The notes below the pieces were generated by a model. That model had not been told where the DNA came from. It ran no database searches and saw nothing but the letters and a program-made list of their open reading frames with translations. Shown here in pieces: positions 19,279 to 64,000 of a stretch of DNA of 64,000 bases (positions are counted from its first letter, which is position 1; each line of letters starts with the position of its first letter). The DNA is taken from positions 3,346,475 to 3,410,474 of the forward strand of contig NC_036457.1 of assembly GCF_002775205.1 (NCBI RefSeq), read 5' to 3'. Made by a program: the position numbers and the translations under genes. The DNA is from Xiphophorus maculatus (lineage: Eukaryota > Chordata > Actinopteri > Cyprinodontiformes > Poeciliidae).

Positions 19279-20174
19279 CTGAGCAAAGTAAAAACAACTC
19301 GGATCATAAAATGTCTAAAGAAAATACCATTGTTGTTTGCAGACTATCTGCACACAGTAAAACTTCTTGTTAATACTGTAAGCAGTTACAAGCTGTAATC
19401 TACATCAGTGAGATGAATCCAGGAAACCAGCAAAAAATGGAGGCTTAGGAAAAAATGAACTGAACGTTGAAAACTACTAATAATATAAAGTTACCTGTAG
19501 TTTAAAAACTTGTATTCCTTCTGAATTCTATCTATGGGATAAAATGACACATAACTTATCAAGAAAAACAACAGAATGTTTTTTTTTTTTTAATGTTTTC
19601 AGGAAAAACTGAGAAACATTTATACTCTTCTAATTACTGAAGGTGATAAGAGAGCCAGAAATCAGCTTGATCCAAAAAACACATCAACTGTGCAAAGACT
19701 GGAGCAGAGTGACCTCGGCGCTGACATCAGCGCTGACATCACTGAGTCCTGCAAACACGAGACTAATGATCTTTTTATTACTCAGGCATCTGGGTAATAA
19801 AAAGATTAAACACACAGCTATGTAAGTAAAATGAAGATACCTGAGAGAATTCAACTTACAAGAGATGGAAAAATAATCTGGGCAAAATAAACATTCATGT
19901 TGAGCAACAAGAATATCAACGTTTACTGTAAATCTTTAACTTTGCAGCTCTATTAAACTTTGAACTAAATAAATTATTGTCAGCTGTTTCATAACAATCT
20001 AAACATGTTAGCCTGGATAGATTTTTCCCCTGAAGAATGAAAAATATAAATTGTCACAGTAGAATAACACAATATTAAAACTTGCAAAATATCAGAGAGA
20101 TAAAATTATGCAATTTTAAAGAACTGCAAAATAAGATTAAGTTGTTAACTTTGACGTTAAAAACTGTAAAATGT

Positions 20175-20348
20175 TGGGCTGGCTGTAATAACCCATACAT
20201 GGAGGACTTAGCCGTCGACACGGCCGTCACAGATTCGAGTCTCGGCCTGATGACCTTTGCCTCATATCTTCTCCCTCCCTCATTACACACATTCCAGTTT
20301 TGTCTCTCAAATGAAGGCCACACAGAGTCAATAAAACCTTTTAAAAAG
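20175..20348 (+). mobile_element. tRNA-derived SINE before gene D
   Basis: An RNA polymerase III B-box-like string GATTCGAGTCTCGG lies in a tRNA-like head, followed by a tail ending AATAAAACC. Direct repeats CTGTAAAATGT at 20164-20174 and 20349-20359 are the target duplication. The matching DNA before gene C (near 10515) holds the single uninterrupted site. Confidence 0.75.
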
Positions 20349-20873
20349 CTGTAAAATGTGCCTTCAAACTGTCTGGAGAAAAATTTCCTCTTTAGGTTTA
20401 TGGTGTTTTTAAAACTATTAAAGATCAGAAATGTTTACAACTGAAGTTTGATTTTTTTAAAACATAAAATGCTTTGCAAAGAAAATGTCACTAACTCTTA
20501 AAAGGGAACAATAAAAGCAATTTTTTCAGTCTGGGTCTGGTGGGACTCTTTAGTGCTTTTATTTTGAAGGTTTAGAATCCTGGTGCTGTCTAAGATCACG
20601 TCTCCAAGAAAACAAAACATCTTCTGTCTGGTTTCAATGCAGTGGAGCACAAGATCTACTCAACCAGTCACACTATATGCGGTGATCCACCTGGCAAAAG
20701 TTAATATAAACCTTTAAGGACCACCAGAACCTTCAAGGCTCATTTTGTTTTAGTTTTTTAATATGCACAGCTAACTTGGGTTGTTTCTGACATCTGATAT
20801 GAAATACTGCAAATACATTGTAATGTTCCAAACTGCCTGTTGTAAACCACATGCTCCACCTCCACCTGTACCT

Positions 20874-20882
20874 TGGACTTTG
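20874..20882 (-). promoter_or_regulatory. HNF4-specific motif, gene D promoter
   Basis: Same exact 9-base motif as at 11490, 69 bp before the ATG. Confidence 0.55.
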
Positions 20883-20950
20883 CTTCAAATCAAATACATG
20901 TCCTACAGTAAAGCTGGTGCACAGCAGCAGGTATTAAACGTGTTGCAGTG

Positions 20951-23900
20951 ATGGGAGCGATGGAGGTTTTTCTCCAGTCATTCAGCCCAGTTTCAGTTTT
21001 AGGTTCTGTGGTTTTAATCCTCATTGGGTTTCACTTTTTCCTCTCCAAGTCCAGACCTCAGGGCCACAGACAGGGACCACCAGGACCAAAACCCCTTCCC
21101 ATCATTGGCAACCTGCTGCAGCTGGATGTTAAGAGACTTGACCAAGCATTCCTGAAGGTGAGACACTACTGATCTCAACATTCCTCTCTACTATATTTCA
21201 TGTATTTTTGCAATTTACTTTCTTTTAAACTATTATACATCTTGTTTTTTTTATCCATGCTTGCCCAGAACAAAAAATGGGTCCCTGTTGCACTAAAATC
21301 TGATTATGTTAAACCGATCAAGTGGGGCTTTGAGAAGACAGAGCATACACATAAACAAATACTGAAGTAAAACGTTAGTCGCTCAGGTTTCCCTCCAGAA
21401 AACCTGCTAAGTCTGATGGTAGAGCAGTGGGACAGTCAACCAGCAGCCCGCTGTGATTTTATATTAATGAATTTTGAAAATACAATAAACTTCAGCGGTC
21501 ATTGTAATTTGGAAATAATAGCGTATGAGGCTGATGGGCAGGTACAGAAGTGGTGCAACAGGTGAGCACTCCTTCACGCCCAGTTCAATGTGTCATCGAT
21601 AAACCCAGTGTAATCTGCCATTACTGTCCCCGTTTATGGTGTATAAAAAAATCTTGCAATGCTTAGCCTGGTGACCCGCGAGGCTTATGACACACTGGGG
21701 ATAAAACCATGATGGCAGTAGTAGCTCCTTTAGTGGCCTTATCTAGGAACAAAACACAGCTAAGCAGATCTGAGCCAGTATTCAAATCTATAAGGTGAAA
21801 GAGAGCACAATGTTCAGCACAATATAAAGCAAATACAAGATATTTACTGACATATGAGGCCCACGTTTCTGAGAAATGAATTAATTTGCATATTCTTTTT
21901 TTTCATTATGCACACCTGGCTTCATCATAGCTTTCTAAGACGTATGGATCTGTGTTCACTGTCCACATGGGACCAAAGAAGATGGTGGTCCTGACAGGGT
22001 ATAAGACGGTGAAAGAAGCATTTGTCAGTTATGCTGAGGAGTTTGGAGAACGGGAAGCACCCATCGTGGCTAAAGAAGCAAACCTGCATCACGGTACAGA
22101 ATCTTTACAAATTCACATGTAGAGAAGTTAGTTATAGTTAGACATAGTTAGACTTATCTTATTAAACTGTTTTAAACAGGTATTGCGTGGACCAATGGAG
22201 ACTCCTGGAAGGAAATGCGCCGCTTTGCTTTGACCAACCTGAAGGACTTTGGGATGGGAAAGAAAGTATGTGAGGAGAAAATCATTGAGGAATGTCACGT
22301 CCTCATCCAGAAATTAAAGGAGTTTAAAGGTAACAGCAGAGAGGAAGACAATATTATTGATATTGTTGCAAGATTTCACCATGAGAACTTTGTTCTTTAA
22401 CCTGAAGGATTATAGTTTAGTTAACTGCTGCTCAGAGTTACTCTTTGCAGTCCAACGTCAAAGTAAAACAATTTTCTGAATAGAGTTAATAAAGTGTTGA
22501 ATAATGATTTTCTGGTTCCTTTGTTGCAGGTGAAGCTTTTGATTCATCCCAACATATAAACTATGCAGTTTGTAATGTAATCTGCTCCATGGTTTATGGC
22601 AAAAGATTTGAATATGATGATCTAGAGTTCACTACCGTTGTAAATCGAACAAACCAAGTCATTCAACTGTTGGGCTCGCCATCAATACAGGTGTGACTGG
22701 ACTGTTTTTAAAGCATAAAATCTGTTAACGTTGGACTGAACAGAGAAGTCACTGTTTATGTTGTGTTCATCATCAGCTGTACAACATGTTCCCAAAGATT
22801 GGCAAGCTGGTGTTTTCAGCCAGAAAGAAAATGAGCGATATATTTGCTGCCAATAAACAGCATCATCTGATGCTGCTGAACCGTTTGAAAGAGACTCTCA
22901 GTCCACAGATGTGCAGAGGAGTTGCAGACGCTTTCCTCATCCGTCAACAGCAACTCAAGGTCAGAACCTATGTTACATAATTTACTGTTTATTCTCTCAG
23001 GACGCTGACAAGCTAATCAACCACTGCTGGAGTTCAGGCCACCGGTTATGAATAATCACAAAATAAACATCCATAAAACCATAAAACCATAAAGAAATGG
23101 TTTGTGGTTTGTAGGAAACACACAAATGTCTGTTTACCACAAACAGGGAAATGTCTGAGTATTGATGTTCCTGATATTAGTGGAGCTGTTGACAGCTGGT
23201 TGCCATGGCAACGGGGGTGTCTGTGGGATAAGAGTGAAGCTGAGTGGTTGAAAGTTGTTCTTCACTTGTTCTACTGTTATTTGCTTTTTGTTGTGAAACA
23301 CTGAAGCCCGACTAATTCCTAAAAGTTCAATGAACAATGAAAACTGGACTAATAGGGCGTCCCGTGGTGGCGTAGTGGTTAGCGTGACCCGTATTTGGAG
23401 GCCTTGAGTCCTCGTCACGGGTTCGACTCCCGGACCCGACGACATTTGCCGCATGTCTTCCCCTCTTTTCTTCCCCGTTTCCTGTCATCATATAAGGGAC
23501 ACTAGAGCCCACAAAAGACCCCCTGGAGGGTAAAAAAACCCAAAACAAACTGGACTAATTGCCTTGTATTCATAAGTCATCAAGTAAGAAAAAAATACTT
23601 CAAAAAGTATTTATTGGAATGTCCCTTTCAGTGGCAATTATGTCAATTTTCATGAATTGTCCAGTATAAAAAAATAAATTGGTTTAGCTTTCTTTTGCAG
23701 CTTGAAAGAACAGACAGAAACCAAACTATGTGTAGATTCATTTCTAGAAAGAAAACAAGTTTACATATCAAAACTTCGGCAGATTTAATCTAAGCCACAT
23801 TTTAGAGATAAAAAATGAGGCCTGTTAGCCTTTGCTCAGCCAAACATTTTTGTGACAAATTCCAGCACAAAAACATTTTTCAATACTGAACCATCGGACC

Positions 23901-25229
23901 AGTCTGCTTGTGGACTCAGTCGGTAGTAATGGTGCCAGTGACACTAGCTATAGCTGCTAATAGTCACTGTCTTATCCAGTAATGTATATCAATGGTGCTC
24001 ACCCTGGATGCATGACTGGCACACGTGGTGCTCCAACCCCGAAGCTCCAACAGAATCGGCGCCTATGATTTCTCCATAATATACTGTATATCTACTGTAT
24101 ATCCGTCTTTTTCACACCACTAATAAAAATCATTCTTAATACACTACTAAGAAAGCTATTTTACTACAATATTTTATATACCTTCTACTTGAGCTAAGCA
24201 AATGGGAAAGTACTTTAGCATGACATGCGTTAGCCTTTGACTACACATCGAACCGTTTTGGTTTTTAAAATCTCAGCTGATCTTCTGCAGGAATCTGGGA
24301 TCACCGACAGTCTCTATCACAACGACAACCTGCTGGTGACAGTCATGAACCTGTTCGCTGCTGGAACTGAAACTACATCAACTACCCTGAGATGGGCATT
24401 CCTGTATATGGCCAAATATCCAAAAATACAAGGTCAGGAACATCTAGTTCTAGATTATGTAAAAATAGAACAATGTGCTACAGAACTTATGGTTTCTGCA
24501 GATTATTTAAAGAGCTGTTGTATCCTTGTCATTTATTGACTTTGATCTTTCAGACCAGGTCCAGCAGGAGCTGAGGAATGTGATTGGAAGTCGGCAGGTT
24601 CAGGTTGAAGACAGACAGAACCTGCCTTTTACAGACGCCGTCATCCACGAGATACAGAGAATTGCCAACATTGCTCCTTTGGCAATTCCTCACAGGACTA
24701 GCCAAGACGTCACGTTCCAAGGTCATTTTATTGAGAAGGTGAGAAATTAGGCTTGATGGTGCACTATCAACAGCTGTTCCCTATATTTCAACATACAGCA
24801 TATAAATGATGACTGATTTGTGTTTTTTAGGGAACTCCAGTAATTGCTGTTTTAACGTCCGTCCTGCAAGATGAGAGCGAATGGGAGAAACCGAACGTCT
24901 TTTATCCAGGCAACTTCCTCAGCAAAGATGGGAAGTTCCTCAAGCGAGACGCCTTCCTGCCTTTTTCAGCAGGTTGGACTGATTATTGTCTTATATAGAT
25001 CCTTACTCTACAGGCATTGGCTGAGGATGTGTTTCTAATAGGTCGCAGGGTTTGCCTTGGAGAGAGTCTGGCCAGAATGGAGCTTTTCATCTTCTTCGCC
25101 ACGCTCCTGCAGCACTTCCGATTTTCTCCTCCACCTGGAGTTACAGAGGAAGAACTCGATCTAACTCCACGAGTTGGTGCTACTCTGAGCCCTCAACCTC
25201 ACACGCTCTGTGTTATCCCTTTAAATTAA
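20951..25229 (+). CDS. cyp2k: CYP2K-like cytochrome P450, gene D (complete, 9 exons)
   Basis: Exons: 20951-21157, 21931-22093, 22180-22329, 22530-22690, 22777-22959, 24291-24432, 24554-24738, 24831-24972, 25042-25229; 1521 bases, 506 residues, no interruption. It has the N-terminal anchor, GPPGPKPLP hinge, WKEMRR C-helix, [14 protein letters not shown]-helix, HEIQR K-helix and [11 protein letters not shown] haem loop (Cys449). Against gene C the changes cluster in exons 2, 4 and 7; exon 2 holds the change from GERVASTVT to GEREAPIVA, in the region just before the C-helix that is often tied to substrate access in CYP2 enzymes. Residue 413 is Ser. Intron 8 is only 69 bp and ends at a pyrimidine-poor acceptor (TTCTAATAG). 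Intron 5 holds a SINE. Confidence 0.94.
21371..21561 (+). other. Open stretch ending at a GTGAG donor-like site in gene D intron 1
   Basis: About 63 codons without a stop, containing [19 protein letters not shown] and ending CAACAG|GTGAGC. The composition looks protein-like but I do not recognise it. It is present in intron 1 of D, E, F and G and absent from C. It may be a fragment of a transposase or a captured exon, or chance. Confidence 0.25.
23354..23546 (+). mobile_element. tRNA-derived SINE in gene D intron 5
   Basis: The head has an A-box-like GGTGGCGTAGTGGTTAGC and a B-box GGTTCGACTCC, followed by a pyrimidine-rich body and an end GGGTAAAAAAACCC. The 13-base direct repeats AAACTGGACTAAT at 23341-23353 and 23547-23559 are the target duplication. 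The family looks like one common in spiny-rayed fishes, by memory. Gene C intron 5 lacks it. Confidence 0.85.
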
Positions 25230-26595
25230 GGAGGAACCTACAGTATATGTGAAAAAAATGGTACTTTATACCTAAAAGAAATCAAAGTAAATGTCCTAAA
25301 ATAGAGAAAATTTGTTTTTAATGTGAAATCTTTACTCCACAAATATCCACCATCAATCACCATCACCATGTATTCAGATGTTTTGTATCTTCATCAAGTC
25401 AAAGTTATTATTTTTGGACAAGCTAAGCTAACTTTCAATGACATTTTGTGCTGTGAAATGAATGATGGTTATGCTGGACCTCCAGCCTTGTACGAGTCAA
25501 ACTGCAGGAGTTTAGTGTATAACTGCTGAATCAACAATCCACTGCATTTAAAACAATTTGATTCCATCAGAAGGAAGAGGAGGAGTTTCAGGAAAGAAAG
25601 TCTGTGATGGAAAACTTAAAACTCTGGAGCCAAGACAAACACACCCTCGTTGCAGCATCGCTGCATCAGGACAGGATCTGTCTTTCACTCGTCGTTCGTT
25701 TGGGCGACATCAGCAAAACCTGAAACCTAAAAATCGATTCTACAAAAGGTAATGGATATCCAATTCAGTCAAACTATAGACCATTGCTTCATCAAAATAA
25801 AGTTGTGTCTTTGCACTGTGAAATAATACCTGGAATGCATACAAAGTGTCAATTAGTGTAAATTAATCTTCATTCATTTAGAGCTTAGTACAATCCCTGG
25901 TCTTTACATATTCATACAAATTACTATAGATCTTTCTATGGGTTATTTCATCTTTTATTGCTTAAATCTGTGTTAGGTAAAACTAATTAACACTCTCCAA
26001 ATGTATTTGTCTGAACAGACGGTTACTTGATTTTGTGTGTTTATAGTAAAATTCAAAACAAAAAGGTTAATAGAAATGTTTTATGTTCTACAAAGTAAAT
26101 TGAAGAATGTCTGTTAATGTAGTTAAAATCTTTACATTTCAGAGAAGAGGACGTCTTTCCCAATCTGTTTTTCAGTCAGTCCTGCCAAGAATGACTTACT
26201 TCTCCTCCTATATTTAACCTAGGCAAAATTGTTCTTTCAGGTCCAGTAGCTCAAACATTAGTGAGAGAATCTGTTCGCATAAGAGCTTTACTAAGAAATG
26301 ATGAAATGCCTAAGATGTACATACCTATTAAAATTTAACATTGAGTAATATTTGTCTGTTTTTATTACATATTAAGCCTTTCGTTCACATGAACTCAATC
26401 TAATACAAAGTGATCTGTGACTAATAGCAGCAGATCTGAGGTTATTCAGAGACTTTAAAGGACTGTCATTGTTTCATTGTTGCATGGTTTCTCATAATAT
26501 TGCATGACATATTTTAATAAATTAATTCATCATTTCAAAAGTTTCCTGCTTATAAGGAAGAAATATGTTTGGATTTAATGGATCAATTAAATTAT

Positions 26596-26692
26596 CTTGT
26601 AACCAGGTTGCTATGTATTGCAAATTTTTTGCTCAGGTCCCTCTTGAAAATGAGATCTAGATCTCAGCGGGGTTTACCTGATTAAATAAAGG
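26596..26692 (+). mobile_element. LINE 3' tail, then (TA)12
   Basis: Copy of 18834-18930; the TA run has 12 repeats, the same number as behind gene F. Confidence 0.55.
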
Positions 26693-26693
26693 A

Positions 26694-26724
<31 letters not shown>

Positions 26725-27030
26725 TATATAGGAATATTTATAAATCCATGAAATTGATCCATTAATTCAATGTAATCAATTTCCATTGAATTAATAAAAA
26801 TTAATTCAATGGAAATTTATTTATTTCCAGTAATCGATTACTTTTTTAATCGATTATCAGCGATTAAGAAAGTAAATATTACTCTTCAAACTACACCACT
26901 TACTCCATTTGACCACAAAGTGGCAGCAAAGATTATCTACTTCCAAACTGCAGGTCTTTGTGTTGATCTGTTTCTGTTTCATCTCTATGCTGCTGATTCC
27001 AACAAAAATATTAGAAAATGCAGCTTCTGT

Positions 27031-27044
27031 CCACTAGGTGGCAG
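27031..27044 (+). promoter_or_regulatory. CTCF-like core motif, D/E spacer
   Basis: Identical to 9726-9739; 1.7 kb before gene E. Confidence 0.5.
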
Positions 27045-27941
27045 CTGAGCAAAGTAAAAACAACTCGGATCATAAAATGTCTAAAGAAAATACCATTGTT
27101 GTTTGCAGACTATCTGCACACAGTAAAACTTCTTGTTAATACTGTAAGCAGTTACAAGCTGTAATCTACATCAGTGAGATGAATCCAGGAAACCAGCAAA
27201 AAATGGAGGCTTAGGAAAAAATGAACTGAACGTTGAAAACTACTAATAATATAAAGTTACCTGTAGTTTAAAAACTTGTATTCCTTCTGAATTCTATCTA
27301 TGGGATAAAATGACACATAACTTATCAAGAAAAACAACAGAATGTTTTTTTTTTTTTTAATGTTTTCAGGAAAAACTGAGAAACATTTATACTCTTCTAA
27401 TTACTGAAGGTGATAAGAGAGCCAGAAATCAGCTTGATCCAAAAAACACATCAACTGTGCAAAGACTGGAGCAGAGTGACCTCGGCGCTGACATCAGCGC
27501 TGACATCACTGAGTCCTGCAAACACGAGACTAATGATCTTTTTATTACTCAGGCATCTGGGTAATAAAAAGATTAAACACACAGCTATGTAAGTAAAATG
27601 AAGATACCTGAGAGAATTCAACTTACAAGAGATGGAAAAATAATCTGGGCAAAATAAACATTCATGTTGAGCAACAAGAATATCAACGTTTACTGTAAAT
27701 CTTTAACTTTGCAGCTCTATTAAACTTTGAACTAAATAAATTATTGTCAGCTGTTTCATAACAATCTAAACATGTTAGCCTGGATAGATTTTTCCCCTGA
27801 AGAATGAAAAATATAAATTGTCACAGTAGAATAACACAATATTAAAACTTGCAAAATATCAGAGAGATAAAATTATGCAATTTTAAAGAACTGCAAAATA
27901 AGATTAAGTTGTTAACTTTGACGTTAAAAACTGTAAAATGT

Positions 27942-28115
27942 TGGGCTGGCTGTAATAACCCATACATGGAGGACTTAGCCGTCGACACGGCCGTCACAGA
28001 TTCGAGTCTCGGCCTGATGACCTTTGCCTCATATCTTCTCCCTCCCTCATTACACACATTCCAGTTTTGTCTCTCAAATGAAGGCCACAGAGAGTCAATA
28101 AAACCTTTTAAAAAG
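27942..28115 (+). mobile_element. tRNA-derived SINE before gene E
   Basis: Duplicate of 20175-20348 carried along with the unit; it differs at GGCCACAGAGAG (28081) against GGCCACACAGAG. Confidence 0.75.
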
Positions 28116-28640
28116 CTGTAAAATGTGCCTTCAAACTGTCTGGAGAAAAATTTCCTCTTTAGGTTTATGGTGTTTTTAAAACTATTAAAGATCAGAAATG
28201 TTTACAACTGAAGTTTGATTTTTTTAAAACATAAAATGCTTTGCAAAGAAAATGTCACTAACTCTTAAAAGGGAACAATAAAAGCAATTTTTTCAGTCTG
28301 GGTCTGGTGGGACTCTTTAGTGCTTTTATTTTGAAGGTTTAGAATCCTGGTGCTGTCTAAGATCACGTCTCCAAGAAAACAAAACATCTTCTGTCTGGTT
28401 TCAATGCAGTGGAGCACAAGATCTACTCAACCAGTCACACTATATGCGGTGATCCACCTGGCAAAAGTTAATATAAACCTTTAAGGACCACCAGAACCTT
28501 CAAGGCTCATTTTGTTTTAGTTTTTTAATATGCACAGCTAACTTGGGTTGTTTCTGACATCTGATATGAAATACTGCAAATACATTGTAATGTTCCAAAC
28601 TGCCTGTTGTAAACCACATGCTCCACCTCCACCTGTACCT

Positions 28641-28649
28641 TGGACTTTG
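28641..28649 (-). promoter_or_regulatory. HNF4-specific motif, gene E promoter
   Basis: Same motif and spacing as before gene D. Confidence 0.55.
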
Positions 28650-28717
28650 CTTCAAATCAAATACATGTCCTACAGTAAAGCTGGTGCACAGCAGCAGGTA
28701 TTAAACGTGTTGCAGTG

Positions 28718-31700
28718 ATGGGAGCGATGGAGGTTTTTCTCCAGTCATTCAGCCCAGTTTCAGTTTTAGGTTCTGTGGTTTTAATCCTCATTGGGTTTCA
28801 CTTTTTCCTCTCCAAGTCCAGACCTCAGGGCCACAGACAGGGACCACCAGGACCAAAACCCCTTCCCATCATTGGCAACCTGCTGCAGCTGGATGTTAAG
28901 AGACTTGACCAAGCATTCCTGAAGGTGAGACACTACTGATCTCAACATTCCTCTCTACTATATTTCATGTATTTTTGCAATTTACTTTCTTTTAAACTAT
29001 TATACATCTTGTTTTTTTTATCCATGCTTGCCCAGAACAAAAAATGGGTCCCTGTTGCACTAAAATCTGATTATGTTAAACCGATCAAGTGGGGCTTTGA
29101 GAAGACAGAGCATACACATAAACAAATACTGAAGTAAAACGTTAGTCGCTCAGGTTTCCCTCCAGAAAACCTGCTAAGTCTGATGGTAGAGCAGTGGGAC
29201 AGTCAACCAGCAGCCCGCTGTGATTTTATATTAATGAATTTTGAAAATACAATAAACTTCAGCGGTCATTGTAATTTGGAAATAATAGCGTATGAGGCTG
29301 ATGGGCAGGTACAGAAGTGGTGCAACAGGTGAGCACTCCTTCACGCCCAGTTCAATGTGTCATCGATAAACCCAGTGTAATCTGCCATTACTGTCCCCGT
29401 TTATGGTGTATAAAAAAATCTTGCAATGCTTAGCCTGGTGACCCGCCAGGCTTATGACACACTGGGGATAAAACCATGATGGCAGTAGTAGCTCCTTTAG
29501 TGGCCTTATCTAGGAACAAAACACAGCTAAGCAGATCTGAGCCAGTATTCAAATCTATAAGGTGAAAGAGAGCACAATGTTCAGCACAATATAAAGCAAA
29601 TACAAGATATTTACTGACATATGAGGCCCACGTTTCTGAGAAATGAATTAATTTGCATATTCTTTTTTTTCATTATGCACACCTGGCTTCATCATAGCTT
29701 TCTAAGACGTATGGATCTGTGTTCACTGTCCACATGGGACCAAAGAAGATGGTGGTCCTGACAGGGTATAAGACGGTGAAAGAAGCATTTGTCAGTTATG
29801 CTGAGGAGTTTGGAGAACGGGAAGCACCCATCGTGGCTAAAGAAGCAAACCTGCATCACGGTACAGAATCTTTACAAATTCACATGTAGAGAAGTTAGTT
29901 ATAGTTAGACATAGTTAGACTTATCTTATTAAACTGTTTTAAACAGGTATTGCGTGGACCAATGGAGACTCCTGGAAGGAAATGCGCCGCTTTGCTTTGA
30001 CCAACCTGAAGGACTTTGGGATGGGAAAGAAAGTATGTGAGGAGAAAATCATTGAGGAATGTCACGTCCTCATCCAGAAATTAAAGGAGTTTAAAGGTAA
30101 CAGCAGAGAGGAAGACAATATTATTGATATTGTTGCAAGATTTCACCATGAGAACTTTGTTCTTTAACCTGAAGGATTATAGTTTAGTTAACTGCTGCTC
30201 AGAGTTACTCTTTGCAGTCCAACGTCAAAGTAAAACAATTTTCTGAATAGAGTTAATAAAGTGTTGAATAATGATTTTCTGGTTCCTTTGTTGCAGGTGA
30301 AGCTTTTGATTCATCCCAACATATAAACTATGCAGTTTGTAATGTAATCTGCTCCATGGTTTATGGCAAAAGATTTGAATATGATGATCTAGAGTTCACT
30401 ACCGTTGTAAATCGAACAAACCAAGTCATTCAACTGTTGGGCTCGCCATCAATACAGGTGTGACTGGACTGTTTTTAAAGCATAAAATCTGTTAACGTTG
30501 GACTGAACAGAGAAGTCACTGTTTATGTTGTGTTCATCATCAGCTGTACAACATGTTCCCAAAGATTGGCAAGCTGGTGTTTTCAGCCAGAAAGAAAATG
30601 AGCGATATATTTGCTGCCAATAAACAGCATCATCTGATGCTGCTGAACCGTTTGAAAGAGACTCTCAGTCCACAGATGTGCAGAGGAGTTGCAGACGCTT
30701 TCCTCATCCGTCAACAGCAACTCAAGGTCAGAACCTATGTTACATAATTTACTGTTTATTCTCTCAGGACGCTGACAAGCTAATCAACCACTGCTGGAGT
30801 TCAGGCCACCGGTTATGAATAATCACAAAATAAACATCCATAAAACCATAAAACCATAAAGAAATGGTTTGTGGTTTGTAGGAAACACACAAATGTCTGT
30901 TTACCACAAACAGGGAAATGTCTGAGTATTGATGTTCCTGATATTAGTGGAGCTGTTGACAGCTGGTTGCCATGGCAACGGGGGTGTCTGTGGGATAAGA
31001 GTGAAGCTGAGTGGTTGAAAGTTGTTCTTCACTTGTTCTACTGTTATTTGCTTTTTGTTGTGAAACACTGAAGCCCGACTAATTCCTAAAAGTTCAATGA
31101 ACAATGAAAACTGGACTAATAGGGCGTCCCGTGGTGGCGTAGTGGTTAGCGTGACCCGTATTTGGAGGCCTTGAGTCCTCGTCACGGGTTCGACTCCCGG
31201 ACCCGACGACATTTGCCGCATGTCTTCCCCTCTTTTCTTCCCCGTTTCCTGTCATCATATAAGGGACACTAGAGCCCACAAAAGACCCCCTGGAGGGTAA
31301 AAAAACCCAAAACAAACTGGACTAATTGCCTTGTATTCATAAGTCATCAAGTAAGAAAAAAATACTTCAAAAAGTATTTATTGGAATGTCCCTTTCAGTG
31401 GCAATTATGTCAATTTTCATGAATTGTCCAGTATAAAAAAATAAATTGGTTTAGCTTTCTTTTGCAGCTTGAAAGAACAGACAGAAACCAAACTATGTGT
31501 AGATTCATTTCTAGAAAGAAAACAAGTTTACATATCAAAACTTCGGCAGATTTAATCTAAGCCACATTTTAGAGATAAAAAATGAGGCCTGTTAGCCTTT
31601 GCTCAGCCAAACATTTTTGTGACAAATTCCAGCACAAAAACATTTTTCAATACTGAACCATCGGACCAGTCTGCTTGTGGACTCAGTCGGTAGTAATGGT

Positions 31701-32996
31701 GCCAGTGACACTAGCTATAGCTGCTAATAGTCACTGTCTTATCCAGTAATGTATATCAATGGTGCTCACCCTGGATGCATGACTGGCACACGTGGTGCTC
31801 CAACCCCGAAGCTCCAACAGAATCGGCGCCTATGATTTCTCCATAATATACTGTATATCTACTGTATATCCGTCTTTTTCACACCACTAATAAAAATCAT
31901 TCTTAATACACTACTAAGAAAGCTATTTTACTACAATATTTTATATACCTTCTACTTGAGCTAAGCAAATGGGAAAGTACTTTAGCATGACATGCGTTAG
32001 CCTTTGACTACACATCGAACCGTTTTGGTTTTTAAAATCTCAGCTGATCTTCTGCAGGAATCTGGGATCACCGACAGTCTCTATCACAACGACAACCTGC
32101 TGGTGACAGTCATGAACCTGTTCGCTGCTGGAACTGAAACTACATCAACTACCCTGAGATGGGCATTCCTGTATATGGCCAAATATCCAAAAATACAAGG
32201 TCAGGAACATCTAGTTCTAGATTATGTAAAAATAGAACAATGTGCTACAGAACTTATGGTTTCTGCAGATTATTTAAAGAGCTGTTGTATCCTTGTCATT
32301 TATTGACTTTGATCTTTCAGACCAGGTCCAGCAGGAGCTGAGGAATGTGATTGGAAGTCGGCAGGTTCAGGTTGAAGACAGACAGAACCTGCCTTTTACA
32401 GACGCCGTCATCCACGAGATACAGAGAATTGCCAACATTGCTCCTTTGGCAATTCCTCACAGGACTAGCCAAGACGTCACGTTCCAAGGTCATTTTATTG
32501 AGAAGGTGAGAAATTAGGCTTGATGGTGCACTATCAACAGCTATTCCCTATATTTCAACATACAGCATATAAATGATGACTGATTTGTGGTTTTTAGGGA
32601 ACTCCAGTAATTGCTGTTTTAACGTCCGTCCTGCAAGATGAGAACGAATGGGAGAAACCGAACGTCTTTTATCCAGGCAACTTCCTCAGCAAAGATGGGA
32701 AGTTCCTCAAGCGAGACGCCTTCCTGCCTTTTTCAGCAGGTCAGACTGATTATTGTCTTATATAGATCCTTACTCTACAGGCATTGGCTGAGGATGTGTT
32801 TCTAATAGGTCGCAGGGTTTGCCTTGGAGAGAGTCTGGCCAGAATGGAGCTTTTCATCTTCTTCGCCACGCTCCTGCAGCACTTCCGATTTTCTCCTCCA
32901 CCTGGAGTTACAGAGGAAGAACTCGATCTAACTCCACGAGTTGGTGCTACTCTGAGCCCTCAACCTCACACGCTCTGTGTTATCCCTTTAAATTAA
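28718..32996 (+). CDS. cyp2k: CYP2K-like cytochrome P450, gene E (complete, 9 exons)
   Basis: Exons: 28718-28924, 29698-29860, 29947-30096, 30297-30457, 30544-30726, 32058-32199, 32321-32505, 32598-32739, 32809-32996. The whole gene is gene D shifted by 7767 bp, and the 506-residue protein differs from D only at residue 413 (Asn for Ser, exon 8). Exons 8-9 agree with gene C instead. Any functional difference between D and E would have to come from expression. Its spacer is split by a Ty3/Gypsy element 1.87 kb past the stop codon. Confidence 0.94.
31121..31313 (+). mobile_element. tRNA-derived SINE in gene E intron 5
   Basis: Unit copy of 23354-23546 with the same target duplications. Confidence 0.85.
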
Positions 32997-34361
32997 GGAG
33001 GAACCTACAGTATATGTGAAAAAAATGGTACTTTATACCTAAAAGAAATCAAAGTAAATGTCCTAAAATAGAGAAAATTTGTTTTTAATGTGAAATCTTT
33101 ACTCCACAAATATCCACCATCAATCACCATCACCATGTATTCAGATGTTTTGTATCTTCATCAAGTCAAAGTTATTATTTTTGGACAAGCTAAGCTAACT
33201 TTCAATGACATTTTGTGCTGTGAAATGAATGATGGTTATGCTGGACCTCCAGCCTTGTACGAGTCAAACTGCAGGAGTTTAGTGTATAACTGCTGAATCA
33301 ACAATCCACTGCATTTAAAACAATTTGATTCCATCAGAAGGAAGAGGAGGAGTTTCAGGAAAGAAAGTCTGTGATGGAAAACTTAAAACTCTGGAGCCAA
33401 GACAAACACACCTTCGTTGCAGCATCGCTGCATCAGGACAGGATCTGTCTTTCACTCGTCGTTCGTTTGGGCGACATCAGCAAAACCTGAAACCTAAAAA
33501 TCGATTCTACAAAAGGTAATGGATATCCAATTCAGTCAAACTATAGACCATTGCTTCATCAAAATAAAGTTGTGTCTTTGCACTGTGAAATAATACCTGG
33601 AATGCATACAAAGTGTCAATTAGTGTAAATTAATCTTCATTCATTTAGAGCTTAGTACAATCCCTGGTCTTTACATATTCATACAAATTACTATAGATCT
33701 TTCTATGGGTTATTTCATCTTTTATTGCTTAAATCTGTGTTAGGTAAAACTAATTAACACTCTCCAAATGTATTTGTCTGAACAGACGGTTACTTGATTT
33801 TGTGTGTTTATAGTAAAATTCAAAACAAAAAGGTTAATAGAAATGTTTTATGTTCTACAAAGTAAATTGAAGAATGTCTGTTAATGTAGTTAAAATCTTT
33901 ACATTTCAGAGAAGAGGACATCTTTCCCAATCTGTTTTTCAGTCAGTCCTGCCAAGAATGACTTACTTCTCCTCCTATATTTAACCTAGGCAAAATTGTT
34001 CTTTCAGGTCCAGTAGCTCAAACATTAGTGAGAGAATCTGTTCGCATAAGAGCTTTACTAAGAAATGATGAAATGCCTAAGATGTACATACCTATTAAAA
34101 TTTAACATTGAGTAATATTTGTCTGTTTTTATTACATATTAAGCCTTTCGTTCACATGAACTCAATCTAATACAAAGTGATCTGTGACTAATAGCAGCAG
34201 ATCTGAGGTTATTCAGAGACTTTAAAGGACTGTCATTGTTTCATTGTTGCATGGTTTCTCATAATATTGCATGACATATTTTAATAAATTAATTCATCAT
34301 TTCAAAAGTTTCCTGCTTATAAGGAAGAAATATGTTTGGATTTAATGGATCAATTAAATAT

Positions 34362-34458
34362 CTTGTAACCAGGTTGCTATGTATTGCAAATTTTTTGCTC
34401 AGGTCCCTCTTGAAAATGAGATCTAGATCTCAGCGGGGTTTACCTGATTAAATAAAGG
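34362..34458 (+). mobile_element. LINE 3' tail, then (TA)7
   Basis: Copy of 18834-18930; only 7 TA repeats, as behind gene G. Confidence 0.55.
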
Positions 34459-34786
34459 AATATATATATATATAGAAATATATATAGGAATATTTATAAA
34501 TCCATGAAATTGATCCATTAATTCAATGTAATCAATTTCCATTGAATTAATAAAAATTAATTCAATGGAAATTTATTTATTTCCAGTAATCGATTACTTT
34601 TTTAATCGATTATCAGCGATTAAGAAAGTAAATATTACTCTTCAAACTACACCACTTACTCCATTTGACCACAAAGTGGCAGCAAAGATTATCTACTTCC
34701 AAACTGCAGGTCTTTGTGTTGATCTGTTTCTGTTTCATCTCTATGCTGCTGATTCCAACAAAAATATTAGAAAATGCAGCTTCTGT

Positions 34787-34800
34787 CCACTAGGTGGCAG
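34787..34800 (+). promoter_or_regulatory. CTCF-like core motif behind gene E
   Basis: Identical motif, 68 bp left of the retroelement edge. Confidence 0.5.
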
Positions 34801-34868
34801 CTGAGCAAAGTAAAAACAACTCGGATCATAAAATGTCTAAAGAAAATACCATTGTTGTTTGCAGACTA

Positions 34869-42176: not shown

Positions 42177-42675
42177 NNNNNNNNNNNNNNNNNNNNNNNN
42201 NNNNNNNNNNNNNNNNNNNNNNNNNNNNNNNNNNNNNNNNNNNNNNNNNNNNNNNNNNNNNNNNNNNNNNNNNNNNNNNNNNNNNNNNNNNNNNNNNNNN
42301 NNNNNNNNNNNNNNNNNNNNNNNNNNNNNNNNNNNNNNNNNNNNNNNNNNNNNNNNNNNNNNNNNNNNNNNNNNNNNNNNNNNNNNNNNNNNNNNNNNNN
42401 NNNNNNNNNNNNNNNNNNNNNNNNNNNNNNNNNNNNNNNNNNNNNNNNNNNNNNNNNNNNNNNNNNNNNNNNNNNNNNNNNNNNNNNNNNNNNNNNNNNN
42501 NNNNNNNNNNNNNNNNNNNNNNNNNNNNNNNNNNNNNNNNNNNNNNNNNNNNNNNNNNNNNNNNNNNNNNNNNNNNNNNNNNNNNNNNNNNNNNNNNNNN
42601 NNNNNNNNNNNNNNNNNNNNNNNNNNNNNNNNNNNNNNNNNNNNNNNNNNNNNNNNNNNNNNNNNNNNNNNNNNN
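42177..42675. other. Assembly gap (499 N)
   Basis: By comparison with the paired copies, the gap should contain at least a second LTR of about 1.3 kb, the element leader and about 190 bp of spacer, so its stated size is too small. Confidence 0.95.
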
Positions 42676-51842: not shown

Positions 51843-54800
51843 ATGGGAGCGATGGAGGTTTTTCTCCAGTCATTCAGCCCAGTTTCAGTTTTAGGTTCTG
51901 TGGTTTTAATCCTCATTGGGTTTCACTTTTTCCTCTCCAAGTCCAGACCTCAGGGCCACAGACAGGGACCACCAGGACCAAAACCCCTTCCCATCATTGG
52001 CAACCTGCTGCAGCTGGATGTTAAGAGACTTGACCAAGCATTCCTGAAGGTGAGACACTACTGATCTCAACATTCCTCTCTACTATATTTCATGTATTTT
52101 TGCAATTTACTTTCTTTTAAACTATTATACATCTTGTTTTTTTTATCCATGCTTGCCCAGAACAAAAAATGGGTCCCTGTTGCACTAAAATCTGATTATG
52201 TTAAACCGATCAAGTGGGGCTTTGAGAAGACAGAGCATACACATAAACAAATACTGAAGTAAAACGTTAGTCGCTCAGGTTTCCCTCCAGAAAACCTGCT
52301 AAGTCTGATGGTAGAGCAGTGGGACAGTCAACCAGCAGCCCGCTGTGATTTTATATTAATGAATTTTGAAAATACAATAAACTTCAGCGGTCATTGTAAT
52401 TTGGAAATAATAGCGTATGAGGCTGATGGGCAGGTACAGAAGTGGTGCAACAGGTGAGCACTCCTTCACGCCCAGTTCAATGTGTCATCGATAAACCCAG
52501 TGTAATCTGCCATTACTGTCCCCGTTTATGGTGTATAAAAAAATCTTGCAATGCTTAGCCTGGTGACCCGCCAGGCTTATGACACACTGGGGATAAAACC
52601 ATGATGGCAGTAGTAGCTCCTTTAGTGGCCTTATCTAGGAACAAAACACAGCTAAGCAGATCTGAGCCAGTATTCAAATCTATAAGGTGAAAGAGAGCAC
52701 AATGTTCAGCACAATATAAAGCAAATACAAGATATTTACTGACATATGAGGCCCACGTTTCTGAGAAATGAATTAATTTGCATATTCTTTTTTTTCATTA
52801 TGCACACCTGGCTTCATCATAGCTTTCTAAGACGTATGGATCTGTGTTCACTGTCCACATGGGACCAAAGAAGATGGTGGTCCTGACAGGGTATAAGACG
52901 GTGAAAGAAGCATTTGTCAGTTATGCTGAGGAGTTTGGAGAACGGGAAGCACCCATCGTGGCTAAAGAAGCAAACCTGCATCACGGTACAGAATCTTTAC
53001 AAATTCACATGTAGAGAAGTTAGTTATAGTTAGACATAGTTAGACTTATCTTATTAAACTGTTTTAAACAGGTATTGCGTGGACCAATGGAGACTCCTGG
53101 AAGGAAATGCGCCGCTTTGCTTTGACCAACCTGAAGGACTTTGGGATGGGAAAGAAAGTATGTGAGGAGAAAATCATTGAGGAATGTCACGTCCTCATCC
53201 AGAAATTAAAGGAGTTTAAAGGTAACAGCAGAGAGGAAGACAATATTATTGATATTGTTGCAAGATTTCACCATGAGAACTTTGTTCTTTAACCTGAAGG
53301 ATTATAGTTTAGTTAACTGCTGCTCAGAGTTACTCTTTGCAGTCCAACGTCAAAGTAAAACAATTTTCTGAATAGAGTTAATAAAGTGTTGAATAATGAT
53401 TTTCTGGTTCCTTTGTTGCAGGTGAAGCTTTTGATTCATCCCAACATATAAACTATGCAGTTTGTAATGTAATCTGCTCCATGGTTTATGGCAAAAGATT
53501 TGAATATGATGATCTAGAGTTCACTACCGTTGTAAATCGAACAAACCAAGTCATTCAACTGTTGGGCTCGCCATCAATACAGGTGTGACTGGACTGTTTT
53601 TAAAGCATAAAATCTGTTAACGTTGGACTGAACAGAGAAGTCACTGTTTATGTTGTGTTCATCATCAGCTGTACAACATGTTCCCAAAGATTGGCAAGCT
53701 GGTGTTTTCAGCCAGAAAGAAAATGAGCGATATATTTGCTGCCAATAAACAGCATCATCTGATGCTGCTGAACCGTTTGAAAGAGACTCTCAGTCCACAG
53801 ATGTGCAGAGGAGTTGCAGACGCTTTCCTCATCCGTCAACAGCAACTCAAGGTCAGAACCTATGTTACATAATTTACTGTTTATTCTCTCAGGACGCTGA
53901 CAAGCTAATCAACCACTGCTGGAGTTCAGGCCACCGGTTATGAATAATCACAAAATAAACATCCATAAAACCATAAAACCATAAAGAAATGGTTTGTGGT
54001 TTGTAGGAAACACACAAATGTCTGTTTACCACAAACAGGGAAATGTCTGAGTATTGATGTTCCTGATATTAGTGGAGCTGTTGACAGCTGGTTGCCATGG
54101 CAACGGGGGTGTCTGTGGGATAAGAGTGAAGCTGAGTGGTTGAAAGTTGTTCTTCACTTGTTCTACTGTTATTTGCTTTTTGTTGTGAAACACTGAAGCC
54201 CGACTAATTCCTAAAAGTTCAATGAACAATGAAAACTGGACTAATAGGGCGTCCCGTGGTGGCGTAGTGGTTAGCGTGACCCGTATTTGGAGGCCTTGAG
54301 TCCTCGTCACGGGTTCGACTCCCGGACCCGACGACATTTGCCGCATGTCTTCCCCTCTTTTCTTCCCCGTTTCCTGTCATCATATAAGGGACACTAGAGC
54401 CCACAAAAGACCCCCTGGAGGGTAAAAAAACCCAAAACAAACTGGACTAATTGCCTTGTATTCATAAGTCATCAAGTAAGAAAAAAATACTTCAAAAAGT
54501 ATTTATTGGAATGTCCCTTTCAGTGGCAATTATGTCAATTTTCATGAATTGTCCAGTATAAAAAAATAAATTGGTTTAGCTTTCTTTTGCAGCTTGAAAG
54601 AACAGACAGAAACCAAACTATGTGTAGATTCATTTCTAGAAAGAAAACAAGTTTACATATCAAAACTTCGGCAGATTTAATCTAAGCCACATTTTAGAGA
54701 TAAAAAATGAGGCCTGTTAGCCTTTGCTCAGCCAAACATTTTTGTGACAAATTCCAGCACAAAAACATTTTTCAATACTGAACCATCGGACCAGTCTGCT

Positions 54801-56121
54801 TGTGGACTCAGTCGGTAGTAATGGTGCCAGTGACACTAGCTATAGCTGCTAATAGTCACTGTCTTATCCAGTAATGTATATCAATGGTGCTCACCCTGGA
54901 TGCATGACTGGCACACGTGGTGCTCCAACCCCGAAGCTCCAACAGAATCGGCGCCTATGATTTCTCCATAATATACTGTATATCTACTGTATATCCGTCT
55001 TTTTCACACCACTAATAAAAATCATTCTTAATACACTACTAAGAAAGCTATTTTACTACAATATTTTATATACCTTCTACTTGAGCTAAGCAAATGGGAA
55101 AGTACTTTAGCATGACATGCGTTAGCCTTTGACTACACATCGAACCGTTTTGGTTTTTAAAATCTCAGCTGATCTTCTGCAGGAATCTGGGATCACCGAC
55201 AGTCTCTATCACAACGACAACCTGCTGGTGACAGTCATGAACCTGTTCGCTGCTGGAACTGAAACTACATCAACTACCCTGAGATGGGCATTCCTGTATA
55301 TGGCCAAATATCCAAAAATACAAGGTCAGGAACATCTAGTTCTAGATTATGTAAAAATAGAACAATGTGCTACAGAACTTATGGTTTCTGCAGATTATTT
55401 AAAGAGCTGTTGTATCCTTGTCATTTATTGACTTTGATCTTTCAGACCAGGTCCAGCAGGAGCTGAGGAATGTGATTGGAAGTCGGCAGGTTCAGGTTGA
55501 AGACAGACAGAACCTGCCTTTTACAGACGCCGTCATCCACGAGATACAGAGAATTGCCAACATTGCTCCTTTGGCAATTCCTCACAGGACTAGCCAAGAC
55601 GTCACGTTCCAAGGTCATTTTATTGAGAAGGTGAGAAATTAGGCTTGATGGTGCACTATCAACAGCTATTCCCTATATTTCAACATACAGCATATAAATG
55701 ATGACTGATTTGTGGTTTTTAGGGAACTCCAGTAATTGCTGTTTTAACGTCCGTCCTGCAAGATGAGAACGAATGGGAGAAACCGAACGTCTTTTATCCA
55801 GGCAACTTCCTCAGCAAAGATGGGAAGTTCCTCAAGCGAGACGCCTTCCTGCCTTTTTCAGCAGGTCAGACTGATTATTGTCTTATATAGATCCTTACTC
55901 TACAGGCATTGGCTGAGGATGTGTTTCTAATAGGTCGCAGGGTTTGCCTTGGAGAGAGTCTGGCCAGAATGGAGCTTTTCATCTTCTTCGCCACGCTCCT
56001 GCAGCACTTCCGATTTTCTCCTCCACCTGGAGTTACAGAGGAAGAACTCGATCTAACTCCACGAGTTGGTGCTACTCTGAGCCCTCAACCTCACACGCTC
56101 TGTGTTATCCCTTTAAATTAA
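51843..56121 (+). CDS. cyp2k: CYP2K-like cytochrome P450, gene G (twin of gene E, complete)
   Basis: Exons: 51843-52049, 52823-52985, 53072-53221, 53422-53582, 53669-53851, 55183-55324, 55446-55630, 55723-55864, 55934-56121. All are intact and sum to 506 residues; the gene is E shifted by 23125 bp and the protein appears identical to E, including Asn413 and the haem ligand Cys449. Its 3' spacer carries the second retroelement at the same site as behind E. Whether G is a separate locus or a second haplotype of E placed in tandem cannot be decided from the sequence alone. Confidence 0.93.
54246..54438 (+). mobile_element. tRNA-derived SINE in gene G intron 5
   Basis: Block copy of the SINE at 31121. 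Confidence 0.85.
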
Positions 56122-57994: not shown

Positions 57995-59316
57995 TGTAGC
58001 GCTTTCTTCACTGCGCAGCTCTGACTGCAAGTTGTAATATTAACCAGCTTATATAATTAGAACTAGGTACGATACGGAGTCATGATAATGGTGAATAATT
58101 AATACAACTGATGCAAAAGTAAAGTTAATACTGCTATTTATTGCAGTGGCTATAATAATAATAATAATAATAATAATACCAAAACAACAAAACAATAAAT
58201 TTTCCAAAAAAACGGAAGGAGGGAAAAAAAAACAACCCAACAAAATAATTATTATAATCAGTGATATGTCAGAATCCAATAGAGTCCACAATAAGTCCAA
58301 AAGCAAAAAGGAGACAAGTATTTTCCCCTTGCAATACTCCTTAAGAGTTTTAGTTCATTTCCTGTAGGAAAAAATGCAGTTCCGTTTCCTACCACCAGGT
58401 GGTGGGTGGGTAGCTCGCCATCTTCCTTCGTCAAAGAGGTGAATCCAAGGAAGAAAAAAAACCTGACCTAAAAGGCCAGATAACACATTTAGTTCATTTG
58501 TACTAAAGGGGGGGGGCAATAAGACTGTTAAATACATTCTTCCTATATTTTAACAACATCAAGAAAAAAGAAATCCTTTTAAAAAGTGCACTTCATAATT
58601 CAAGTTCAAAATCAATTAAGTAATCTAATTAGCAATCATTACAAACAACTAATATTGAATCAAATCAATCGACTTAAAATGTGATTGATCAAAGTAGCTA
58701 CAAACTAAATCATATTAGGTACCAAATTCCATTGTTGCACCAACATGGAGTGCAAACACCAATAAGAAATCATGAAAAAATAATCAAATCTAAAATTGAA
58801 AAACAAACCCTTAAATGTTAAAGGTGTGGTCTTTAATTCGGCTGCCATTAAGCAAGTAATAAGTAGAACAATTTGATGTGAGCCATTGATTGTCGAGTTG
58901 ATTTCTAACGCTAACTAGCGGAGCAGAACGAAAATAATTCCCCGTTTTGTTTTATACTCACCGTCGAGTAATGATTGCCTGAGGAGGTATGGTAACTTGT
59001 TCGATTTTGGCAATAGATCACAACCTGAGTGGTTTAACGGGAGGCAACATTAGCGGCGCGATCAGTACAGCTATTATACAACAACAGTCAGATGACATTC
59101 AACACTCACCGCAAATCTTCAAGTCTCAAAGACAAAACAACCGATGAGTCAATCTAAGCGCTCTGGTTGTTTTATAAACAACCGATCAGACAGCCAACAA
59201 TGAGCAGCAGCAATGTTTGGAGAAAAGAGGAGAAACCCGGAAGCACACAACAATCAATTTAAAGGGGCAGCTCAAAGGGAAGGTGATTGGGTCATGGTGG
59301 TCACCTGGGTTACACA
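57995..59316 (-). repeat. 3' LTR of retroelement copy 2
   Basis: About 1.32 kb, nearly identical to 34869-36189. The last 45 bp of the pol frame run into it. Age cannot be estimated from LTR divergence because no 5' LTR is in the window. Confidence 0.75.
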
Positions 59317-62300: not shown

Positions 62301-63834
62301 CAACAGACAGTTTTAGTCCAAAGTCCTTTAATTTGTTTAGGACTTTCATCAATCTTTCTTCATGTTCTTCAAGAGTTGGTGCGAAGATGATCAAATCGTC
62401 AATAAAAACCAAGACCTCTTTCAAATGGAGCTCACCCATACATTTTTCCATAAGTCGCTGAAATGTGCTTGGAGCATTGGTCACTCCCTGCGGCATGCGA
62501 TTAAATTCCCAGAAGCCTAAAGGACAAACAAATGCTGTCTTGTCCTTATCAGCTTCCTCCATCTCTATCTGGTAATACCCAGATTTTAGGTCCAGCACAG
62601 AGAACCATTTAGAGCCTGCCAGTGCAGTAAATGCATCTTCTAGCTTCGGAAGAGCATAAGCATCTTTAATAGTTTGCATGTTGAGTTTTCGATAATCAAT
62701 ACAAAGACGTACAGCGCCATTTTTCTTACGAACCACCACAATGGGTGAGGCAAATGGAGACTCGGATTCACGGATTATTCCAGACTCAAACAATTCTTGC
62801 AGATGCTTTCTCACAGCATCAACATCCTGTGGATGTATAGGGCGTGGTCTCTGTTTAAATGGTGTCGGGTCAGACAATCTTATCTGATGTTTTACTTTGT
62901 CTGTTCGACCAAAATCAAGGTCGTGTTTGGCAAAGACCTCTGGTATGTTGTTGAGCTTTGAAATGATCCGACTTTTCCATTCTGGTGTTAGAGGTGATTC
63001 TCCAAAATTATATTGAAGCGGAGTTGTTAATGGCGCTGCAAACTCATGGATTTTGACACTATGCTCTTTTGAGATAACAGACTGGAACGCAGCAATCTCT
63101 GCAATGGCTGCTCTGGCGGGGATGATGACAGGATGGTTTGACTCATTAGTTACCACAACTGGCAGATTACAAGGCCGATGTTGAGGTATATTAATGAGAC
63201 AGGTGTTAACCAAAAGTCCGCCAGGCAGACAGGAAGAAGCTGGGTATTCAACAACAACCACCTTCTCTTCCCTCAGTAACCGTGCGGTCAAACATCCCTC
63301 AAGAACAACAGTTTGACCAGATAATATTGTTTGTGGTTGGTCAGACTGCAGAGTTAGGACAACTGGATTTTCAGATGTGGTTTGAGTATGCCTGCGCTGC
63401 AGGATCTTCAGGACAGTTTGATACCCAAAGGCAATGGGCTTAAAAGTAGTAGACTGGCTCTCAAGGTGCTTTTTGTAAGCAATGTCAAGGGTATTTGTGC
63501 CTACTAGTAAAAGTGGATGTGTAGTTTTGGTGTCTGGAACCACCAAAGCTAGGGTGTCCACATCAATTGGTGACCCAAGAAATTCAGGTGGAAAAGTCAA
63601 ATTTAATTCAATGTACCCAAGGTATGGCACATTTTGACCATTAGCACCCTCAACTTCCAACAGACTGTTCAAAGGCATAATTTCATGGTCAAAAAGGTGC
63701 ATATTATAAAATGAATGTGGTACTGTAGTGACTTGCGACCCACTGTCAAGAAGACAGCTGAAGGTGGTTCCTTTTATTTGAATCTGGCCCATGCTCTTCA
63801 TGCCAATAAGACCCTTGGGTAATACACAAGACAA
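59272..63834 (-). CDS. Pol polyprotein of retroelement copy 2 (Ty3/Gypsy)
   Basis: One open frame of 1520 codons. An aspartic protease with CLLDSGSQVTT is near residue 28. The reverse transcriptase covers about 340-510 with the catalytic FIDD near 477. RNase H (about 620-730) has the TDAS motif. Then come the integrase zinc region (HDRMGHLG ... CERCVKR) and the DDE core ([21 protein letters not shown]), ending in a long acidic tail. Together these copy element RNA into DNA and insert it. No chromodomain is recognised in the tail. It looks whole; the first Met is an assumption, as elements of this group often join Pol to Gag by recoding. Confidence 0.92.
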   Translation of the reverse strand: MSCVLPKGLIGMKSMGQIQIKGTTFSCLLDSGSQVTTVPHSFYNMHLFDHEIMPLNSLLEVEGANGQNVPYLGYIELNLTFPPEFLGSPIDVDTLALVVPDTKTTHPLLLVGTNTLDIAYKKHLESQSTTFKPIAFGYQTVLKILQRRHTQTTSENPVVLTLQSDQPQTILSGQTVVLEGCLTARLLREEKVVVVEYPASSCLPGGLLVNTCLINIPQHRPCNLPVVVTNESNHPVIIPARAAIAEIAAFQSVISKEHSVKIHEFAAPLTTPLQYNFGESPLTPEWKSRIISKLNNIPEVFAKHDLDFGRTDKVKHQIRLSDPTPFKQRPRPIHPQDVDAVRKHLQELFESGIIRESESPFASPIVVVRKKNGAVRLCIDYRKLNMQTIKDAYALPKLEDAFTALAGSKWFSVLDLKSGYYQIEMEEADKDKTAFVCPLGFWEFNRMPQGVTNAPSTFQRLMEKCMGELHLKEVLVFIDDLIIFAPTLEEHEERLMKVLNKLKDFGLKLSVEKCVFFQTSVKYLGHVVSQDGVETDPDKISTLASWPVPKNLKELRSFLGFAGYYRRFVKDYSTIVKPLHDLTAGYPPNRKKPKPMLKPQNYFNPKEPFAERWTESCQHAFKTIIEKLTTSPVLAFADPSKPYILHTDASSAGLGAVLYQEIDGKSRVVAYASRGLSRSESNYPAHKLEFLALKWAVTEKFNDYLYGTQFTVVTDSNPLPYLLTSAKLDATSYRWLSALSTFTFKIVYRAGKLNADADGLSRRPHSEMPDDFKSCKERERVLKFVQHHLEEPGCTSLDQHIVEAICDRQLVLSSSNDHAFVLSLTAHVESLPDSYTNDTQFATSVLPRFSTADLAAKQRADSTIQHVIAQLERGESPPPSLRDVLPDLPLLLREVNKLELRNNLLLRRRQVGNRVAYQLVLPEECRHMVMVQLHDRMGHLGIERTLDLIRSRFFWPRMSADIYNKIKTCERCVKRKTLPEHAAPLVNIKTSRPLELVCMDFLSLEPDRRVKDILVITDHFTKYAVAVPTPNQKARTVAKCLWENFFVHYGIPERLHSDQGPDFESRTIKELCDIAGIHKGRTTPYHPRGNPVERFNRTLLNMLGTLSEQNKSRWKDFVKPLVHAYNCTKNDVTGFSPYELMFGRQPRLPIDVAFGLPLEEDTTTSHLQYVQGLKARLQDSYQLAVENSEKVMSRNKISFDRHVTNSELAVGDRVLVRNVRLRGKQKLADKWEPDIYVVVKRAGNLPVYTVKPENQDKPLRTLHRDLLLPCNYLPEQSSKKNLPMKRKKHLSVNLPDPDDKETSEDEIISPIYDPSSFEPMEFITTVNLPLPPVQQSVPPVDLPEVPDQPPSSAAEEDLEQEFPVVSDELMGLQPVDREAISISSKSDDSAGGPAAEGSPVPEPVTPEPSTSNIEPDVDSDAESESLSPESEPLLRRSTRARRPPERLQYSQLGHPLLKSIQLLFHGLTTAFSHALEETEEDERITVPAIQTQPGPCTGTCMGLGGECVTQVTTMTQSPSL

Positions 63835-63899
63835 TTCAGAATGGGGTTTGGGACAGCTAATAGTAGCAGCTCCTGAGTGTCCCTCAGCAGAAACTGCAT

Positions 63900-64000
63900 T
63901 TAGTTTAACGGCTGGCTCGAATTTTTTTCATCCCATGCTTGTTGTTTCTGACGGAGCTGTCTCTTCTTATGTTCCACAAGGCCTGGATTCGCTTTATTAC
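63900..64000 (-). CDS. 3' end of gag, retroelement copy 2 (cut by window edge)
   Basis: Corresponds to the C-terminal end of the gag at 40766-42145. Only the final 30 or so codons, after the zinc knuckle, are visible. Confidence 0.75.
   Translation of the reverse strand, partial: NKANPGLVEHKKRQLRQKQQAWDEKNSSQPLN

Follow-up and report, generated by a model that had tools for sequence, protein, structure and literature searches.

A P450 gene pair and a retroelement on chromosome C15 of Xiphophorus maculatus: probably one locus assembled twice

The stretch of Xiphophorus maculatus DNA considered here (hereafter the window) comprises 64,000 nucleotides of chromosome C15, positions 3346475-3410474, in an assembly of 704 Mb and 101 contigs. 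It carries a cluster of P450 genes, which we letter A to G, and a long terminal repeat (LTR) retroelement; two of the genes and the retroelement occur twice, once on each side of a run of N. An original prediction had described this as a 23.1-kb block present twice and almost identical. A self-comparison of 204 kb (the window plus an upstream flank of 40 kb and a downstream one of 100 kb) recovers the two copies, with window positions 19539-42176 (22,638 b) matching 42676-65303 (22,628 b) at 99.69% identity, the second copy extending 1,303 b beyond the window end. The block itself is 22.6 kb long, and 23.1 kb is the offset from copy to copy. The features concerned are the following, in window coordinates.

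19539 to 42176, no strand: left block copy, read as the right-hand end of a left contig and containing genes D and E, a third partial 7.77-kb unit and a gap-cut retroelement (self-comparison)
42177 to 42675, no strand: run of 499 N, the sole N run in the 204 kb, interpreted as the gap at which two contigs were scaffolded
42676 to 64000, continuing to 65303, no strand: right block copy, read as the left-hand end of a right contig (self-comparison)
20951 to 25229, plus strand: P450 gene D, CYP2-type, nine exons, 506 amino acids (aa), open (splice model; best solved relatives CYP2)
28718 to 32996, plus strand: P450 gene E, nine exons, 506 aa, open, with S413N as its sole difference from D (splice model)
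44081 to 48358, plus strand: apparent gene F, probably D again, with six single-base coding insertions or deletions (indels) in exons 6-9 (splice model, alignment)
51843 to 56121, plus strand: apparent gene G, probably E again, its protein identical to that of E (splice model, alignment)
34870 to 42176, minus strand: left copy of the retroelement, truncated at the gap short of its 5' LTR, whose frames of at least 90 aa measure 461, 409, 299 and 199 aa
57996 to 64000, continuing to about 66954 (end of the 5' LTR), minus strand: right copy of the retroelement, with a 1551-aa pol frame carrying reverse transcriptase, RNase H and integrase domains
17037 to 34869, plus strand: tandem unit of 7.77 kb in about 2.3 copies (starts at 17037, 24799 and 32566), with its breakpoint in intron 8 (self-comparison)

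The edges of the block match are those of the N run, namely the first base after it and the last base before it, and remain so when 140 kb of flank are added to the window; a gap had been predicted exactly at the junction, and this is where it lies. No N run was present at any of 30 genome loci retrieved with the element's LTR, three of which came from this same locus.

Genes D and E are modelled with nine exons and GT-AG introns throughout (in D, exon 1 lies at 20951-21157 and exon 2 at 21931-22093). Their solved relatives are headed by CYP2C8 (E=4.3e-121) and further CYP2 chains, and this similarity, together with the nine-exon gene, places them in the CYP2 family. Their motif and gene structure suggest that they may be CYP2K genes. 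Spliced in the same way, F contains six stop codons; D, E and G, as well as gene C and the paralogues C' and D' that lie to the right of the window, have open frames of 506 aa with one terminal stop each.

The retroelement sits on the minus strand within the third 7.77-kb unit, which it interrupts. The left contig stops about 330 b short of its 5' LTR, and the right contig holds the whole element, with LTRs at 57995-59315 and 65635-66955 that are identical over 1,321 aligned bases. Along the pol frame, which was scanned in two pieces, the Pfam domains RVT_1, RT_RNaseH, Integrase_H2C2 and rve follow one another in this order; the position of reverse transcriptase and RNase H before integrase, together with the LTRs, identifies a retroelement of the Ty3/gypsy type. 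No repeat of at least 40 b was found inside the left element's stretch, because its second LTR lies past the gap. Elsewhere in the genome, LTRs of this young element, at 98-100% identity, are paired about 7.6 kb apart on C7, C9, C11 and C14, and occur singly on C4, C15 (at 15.7 Mb) and C23.

The relations among the four genes emerge from a four-way alignment of 7.6 kb each (19539-27113 and its counterparts in E, F and G). At all nine substitution sites that separate D from E, and in the TA repeat that follows the genes (12, 7, 12 and 7 units after D, E, F and G), D agrees with F and E with G, and the opposite grouping of D with G and E with F occurs in 0 columns of this alignment. Columns private to one copy comprise 26 indels and one substitution in F, two indels in E, one indel in G and none in D. 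The pairing of D with F and of E with G at every separating site had been predicted, as had the TA repeat counts, the difference at residue 413 (S in D, N in E) and the sites at the start of intron 8 (24975 and 24976), and all of these are recovered here; a further site, 21680, had been assigned to intron 2 and falls in intron 1 of the nine-exon model. The equal microsatellite lengths, previously offered as an argument for a very recent event or for two haplotypes in tandem, do not by themselves separate the options.

One D/E difference, at 20323, lies inside a short repeat (20190-20347) that recurs on other chromosomes in at least 30 more places, at 77-80% identity, and is like a short interspersed element (SINE) by its copy number. 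Another stretch, 23340-23530 in intron 5 of D, presumably resembles a tRNA-derived SINE in its promoter boxes. Scans of the 64-kb window for tRNAs and against Rfam gave no match.

Near-identical 7.77-kb units lie at the break, as they would if the D/E array were longer than assembled and the two contigs were opposite ends of a larger, partly collapsed array, in which case the gene count would be neither five nor seven. However, the register of D, E and the third partial unit is common to both contigs, as are the sites specific to D or E, and we regard a longer array as scarcely credible.

Most of the evidence is borne by single-base indels between the block copies, on which the original prediction was silent. 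The BLAST traceback shows 2 substitutions and 59 indels between the copies over 22.6 kb. Single-base events account for 55 of these indels, and 51 of the 55 adjoin the same base, an excess (p ~2e-12) over the 48% of bases that have an equal neighbour stretch-wide. The control pairs are four of the paralogue rows of the 204-kb self-comparison, recounted, and their substitutions and indels stand at 16:4, 26:3, 83:12 and 62:8, where 26:3 was counted on only the best piece (6,585 b) of the match between B-C and B'-C' (51:6 before the traceback split), and where the pairs unit 1/D' and D-E/C'-D' overlap in one sequence (22362-24139). The block copies depart from each of these pairs, with Fisher p from 2e-11 to 3e-28. 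Comparisons kept outside the control set gave 2:0 (19343 against 66954), 0:0 (the right contig's two LTRs) and 0:1 (the LTR of the left contig compared with the 5' LTR of the right). A count of 17 substitutions, obtained from an alignment that reached 64000 only, was rejected, as 15 of them fell in two short runs and represent misaligned indel pairs.

Because the ratio of 2:59 is opposite to that of the neighbouring paralogue pairs, the copies look like one sequence read twice with differing consensus errors, and not like diverged DNA; long-read error is the probable source of the indels. The substitution-dominated divergence that marks a real segmental duplication is lacking between the copies, although a comparison of this kind would miss a duplication too recent to have gathered substitutions.

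The same counts bear on a second form of assembly artefact, namely heterotype false duplication, in which two alleles of one locus are placed in tandem. This was the main source of false duplications in Ko et al. 2022 (PMC9516828). Against it stand 2 substitutions in 22.6 kb beside 59 indels, so that haplotype-specific variants between the copies are all but missing, and the identical lengths of the TA repeats; we consider it very improbable, and near-identical alleles would here be indistinguishable from a single sequence assembled twice. Two explanations had been proposed originally, a very recent event or haplotypes set in tandem by the assembler. The notion of an artefact is favoured by our results, but its two-haplotype form is disfavoured, since 2 substitutions are few for alleles and 55 of the 59 indels are of a single base, which does not resemble allelic divergence.

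The differences are also clustered. From 19539 onwards they number 9, 1, 9, 5, 1, 0, 0, 1, 3, 20, 10 and 2 per 2-kb bin (the last bin being of 0.6 kb), and both outer parts of the block are thus rich in differences, with a clean middle. In the left part of the block, where E and G can serve as referees, the errors fall in F, where the right contig begins. Over the pol region of the element it is the left contig that is faulty, its frame lying in pieces where that of the right contig is open over 1551 aa. Each contig is therefore poorer towards the gap.

We consider the best explanation of this pattern, at a probability of roughly 0.87, to be a homotype false duplication, in which overlapping contig ends were scaffolded as tandem duplicates and one locus is shown twice. 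The left contig would extend from gene A by way of C, D and E as far as the retroelement, ending there at 42176, and the right contig would start upstream of D (42676 corresponding to 19539) and continue through D, E and the whole retroelement into further P450 genes, giving an overlap of 22.6 kb that was left unmerged. Merging probably failed on account of the near-identical 7.77-kb units and the young retroelement, which would form branch points in the assembly graph (the right contig begins 192 b past one such point), and a probable contributor is that few long reads, rich in errors, went into each contig end. In scaffolding, the contigs would then have been placed next to each other with a nominal gap between them, and F and G would be D and E read again. 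Between the five and seven genes originally entertained, five is the favoured number, the window most likely representing P450 genes A to E.

Errors of this kind are known from vertebrate assemblies. Rhie et al. 2021 (PMC8081667) describe overlapping contig-boundary sequences at graph branches that are scaffolded as gapped tandem duplicates and differ in consensus quality. The present locus shares with these cases the facing contig ends that repeat one locus, in the dovetail arrangement (equally expected of a real duplication if the gap concealed its junction), and the gap between them, if the 499 N are read as an assembly gap. It shares, moreover, few substitutions and error-like differences in place of haplotype-type variants (2 against 59, 55 of these of 1 b), and unequal consensus quality, as judged here from sequence only by the private indels of F and by the broken as against the open pol frame. 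It may differ in that the duplicated length there often equals that of a corrected read, such that the fit of 22.6 kb depends on read lengths. The locus likewise resembles the false gene gains described by Ko et al. 2022 in having two extra copies in a tandem family with a gap between, whereas the criteria applied there are read depth, linked reads and k-mers, and ours derive from the assembled bases alone.

Several points weigh against unmerged contig ends. That the N run is an assembly gap is an interpretation and not a given. The match geometry at the gap edges is also expected of a real tandem duplication whose junction lies in the gap; it was consequently dropped as proof and is treated as no more than consistent. 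Errors can abound in contig ends next to any gap, and clusters alone leave two real copies possible, for which reason the error clusters too were dropped as proof and are counted as support. Moreover, the differences assigned to the left contig peak 2.6-4.6 kb before its end (20), the final 0.6 kb holding 2, and both contigs have an open gag-like frame, of 461 aa in the left one and 467 aa in the right. Finally, the right contig begins 192 b past the point homologous to the element's right flank (19347), an offset that fits a real unequal crossover with about 1.8 kb hidden in the gap.

Such a crossover would constitute a real and very recent tandem duplication to D-E-element-D-E-element, which would add two P450 genes and would possibly still be polymorphic in the species. 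It would have joined the element's right flank (66954-68651) to the sequence upstream of D (19343-21040), with the gap hiding the 5' LTR and about 0.5 kb around it. The homology required is present (1,698 b with 2 substitutions and 0 indels), and with the right contig starting 192 b past the junction and the left ending about 330 b before the 5' LTR, the hidden 1.8 kb would close the structure. The cluster has, besides, been duplicated repeatedly, and error-rich contig ends beside a gap are compatible with this history. However, F matches D at both sites that separate the sequence upstream of D from the element's right flank (20081 and 20840), and the crossover would therefore be confined to about 730 b, between 19347 and 20081; furthermore, at most 2 substitutions in 22.6 kb are allowed since the event. 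We consider a real duplication unlikely, because it demands both so recent an event and an assembler that separated near-identical 24-kb copies and yet left them error-marked near the gap, when two identical copies would more probably have been collapsed than rendered as two error-marked ends.

If, as we prefer, overlapping contig ends were left unmerged, the assembly, if uncorrected, overstates the P450 genes by two, of which F is seemingly broken, and shows the retroelement a second time. Such errors make expanded P450 families look larger than they are, and would create the impression of a pseudogene and of a recent burst that probably never happened. The ratio of substitutions to indels in a suspect pair, set against that of paralogues from the same locus, can be used on gap-flanking duplications without recourse to reads.

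Other duplications in the cluster appear genuine. The array of 7.77-kb units is judged to be a real duplication, given that its divergence is dominated by substitutions. To the right of the element the unit resumes at 66954-68651, in a form like 19343-21040, and ends in a P450 exon-1 stub, after which follow the paralogues B', C' and D'. The stub (68562-68654, the first 93 b of 207) is joined directly to gene-B-like upstream sequence, and the junction is apparently a recombination scar. Positions 5580-14615, which hold B and part of C, recur at 68656-77708 as B' and C' with 98.9% identity, 51 substitutions and 6 gap openings, followed by D'; this segmental duplication is real-looking.

A probe of D exons detected ten gene-like sets in the 204 kb as assembled and eight after merging (A, B, C, D, E, B', C' and D'), plus the exon-1 stub, although it recovered seven of nine exons each in A, B and B' and could miss more distant P450 genes. 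Growth of a P450 cluster by tandem duplication is of a kind already known in teleosts, and the tandem CYP2K cluster of Kryptolebias marmoratus (PMC5751882) likewise consists of nine-exon CYP2-type genes with about 1.5 kb of coding sequence in a tandem array; for our cluster the CYP2K label is putative.

Gene C (11567-17467) is a mosaic with respect to D, with identities of 91-98% in exons 1-4 and 6-7, 100% in exon 5 and 99.3-99.5% in exons 8-9; the unit breakpoint, at 17037, falls in intron 8. The identical exon 5 of C and D hints at gene conversion. In D', intron 5 (85460-91014) measures about 5.6 kb as against 1.3 kb in D, and probably contains an insertion.

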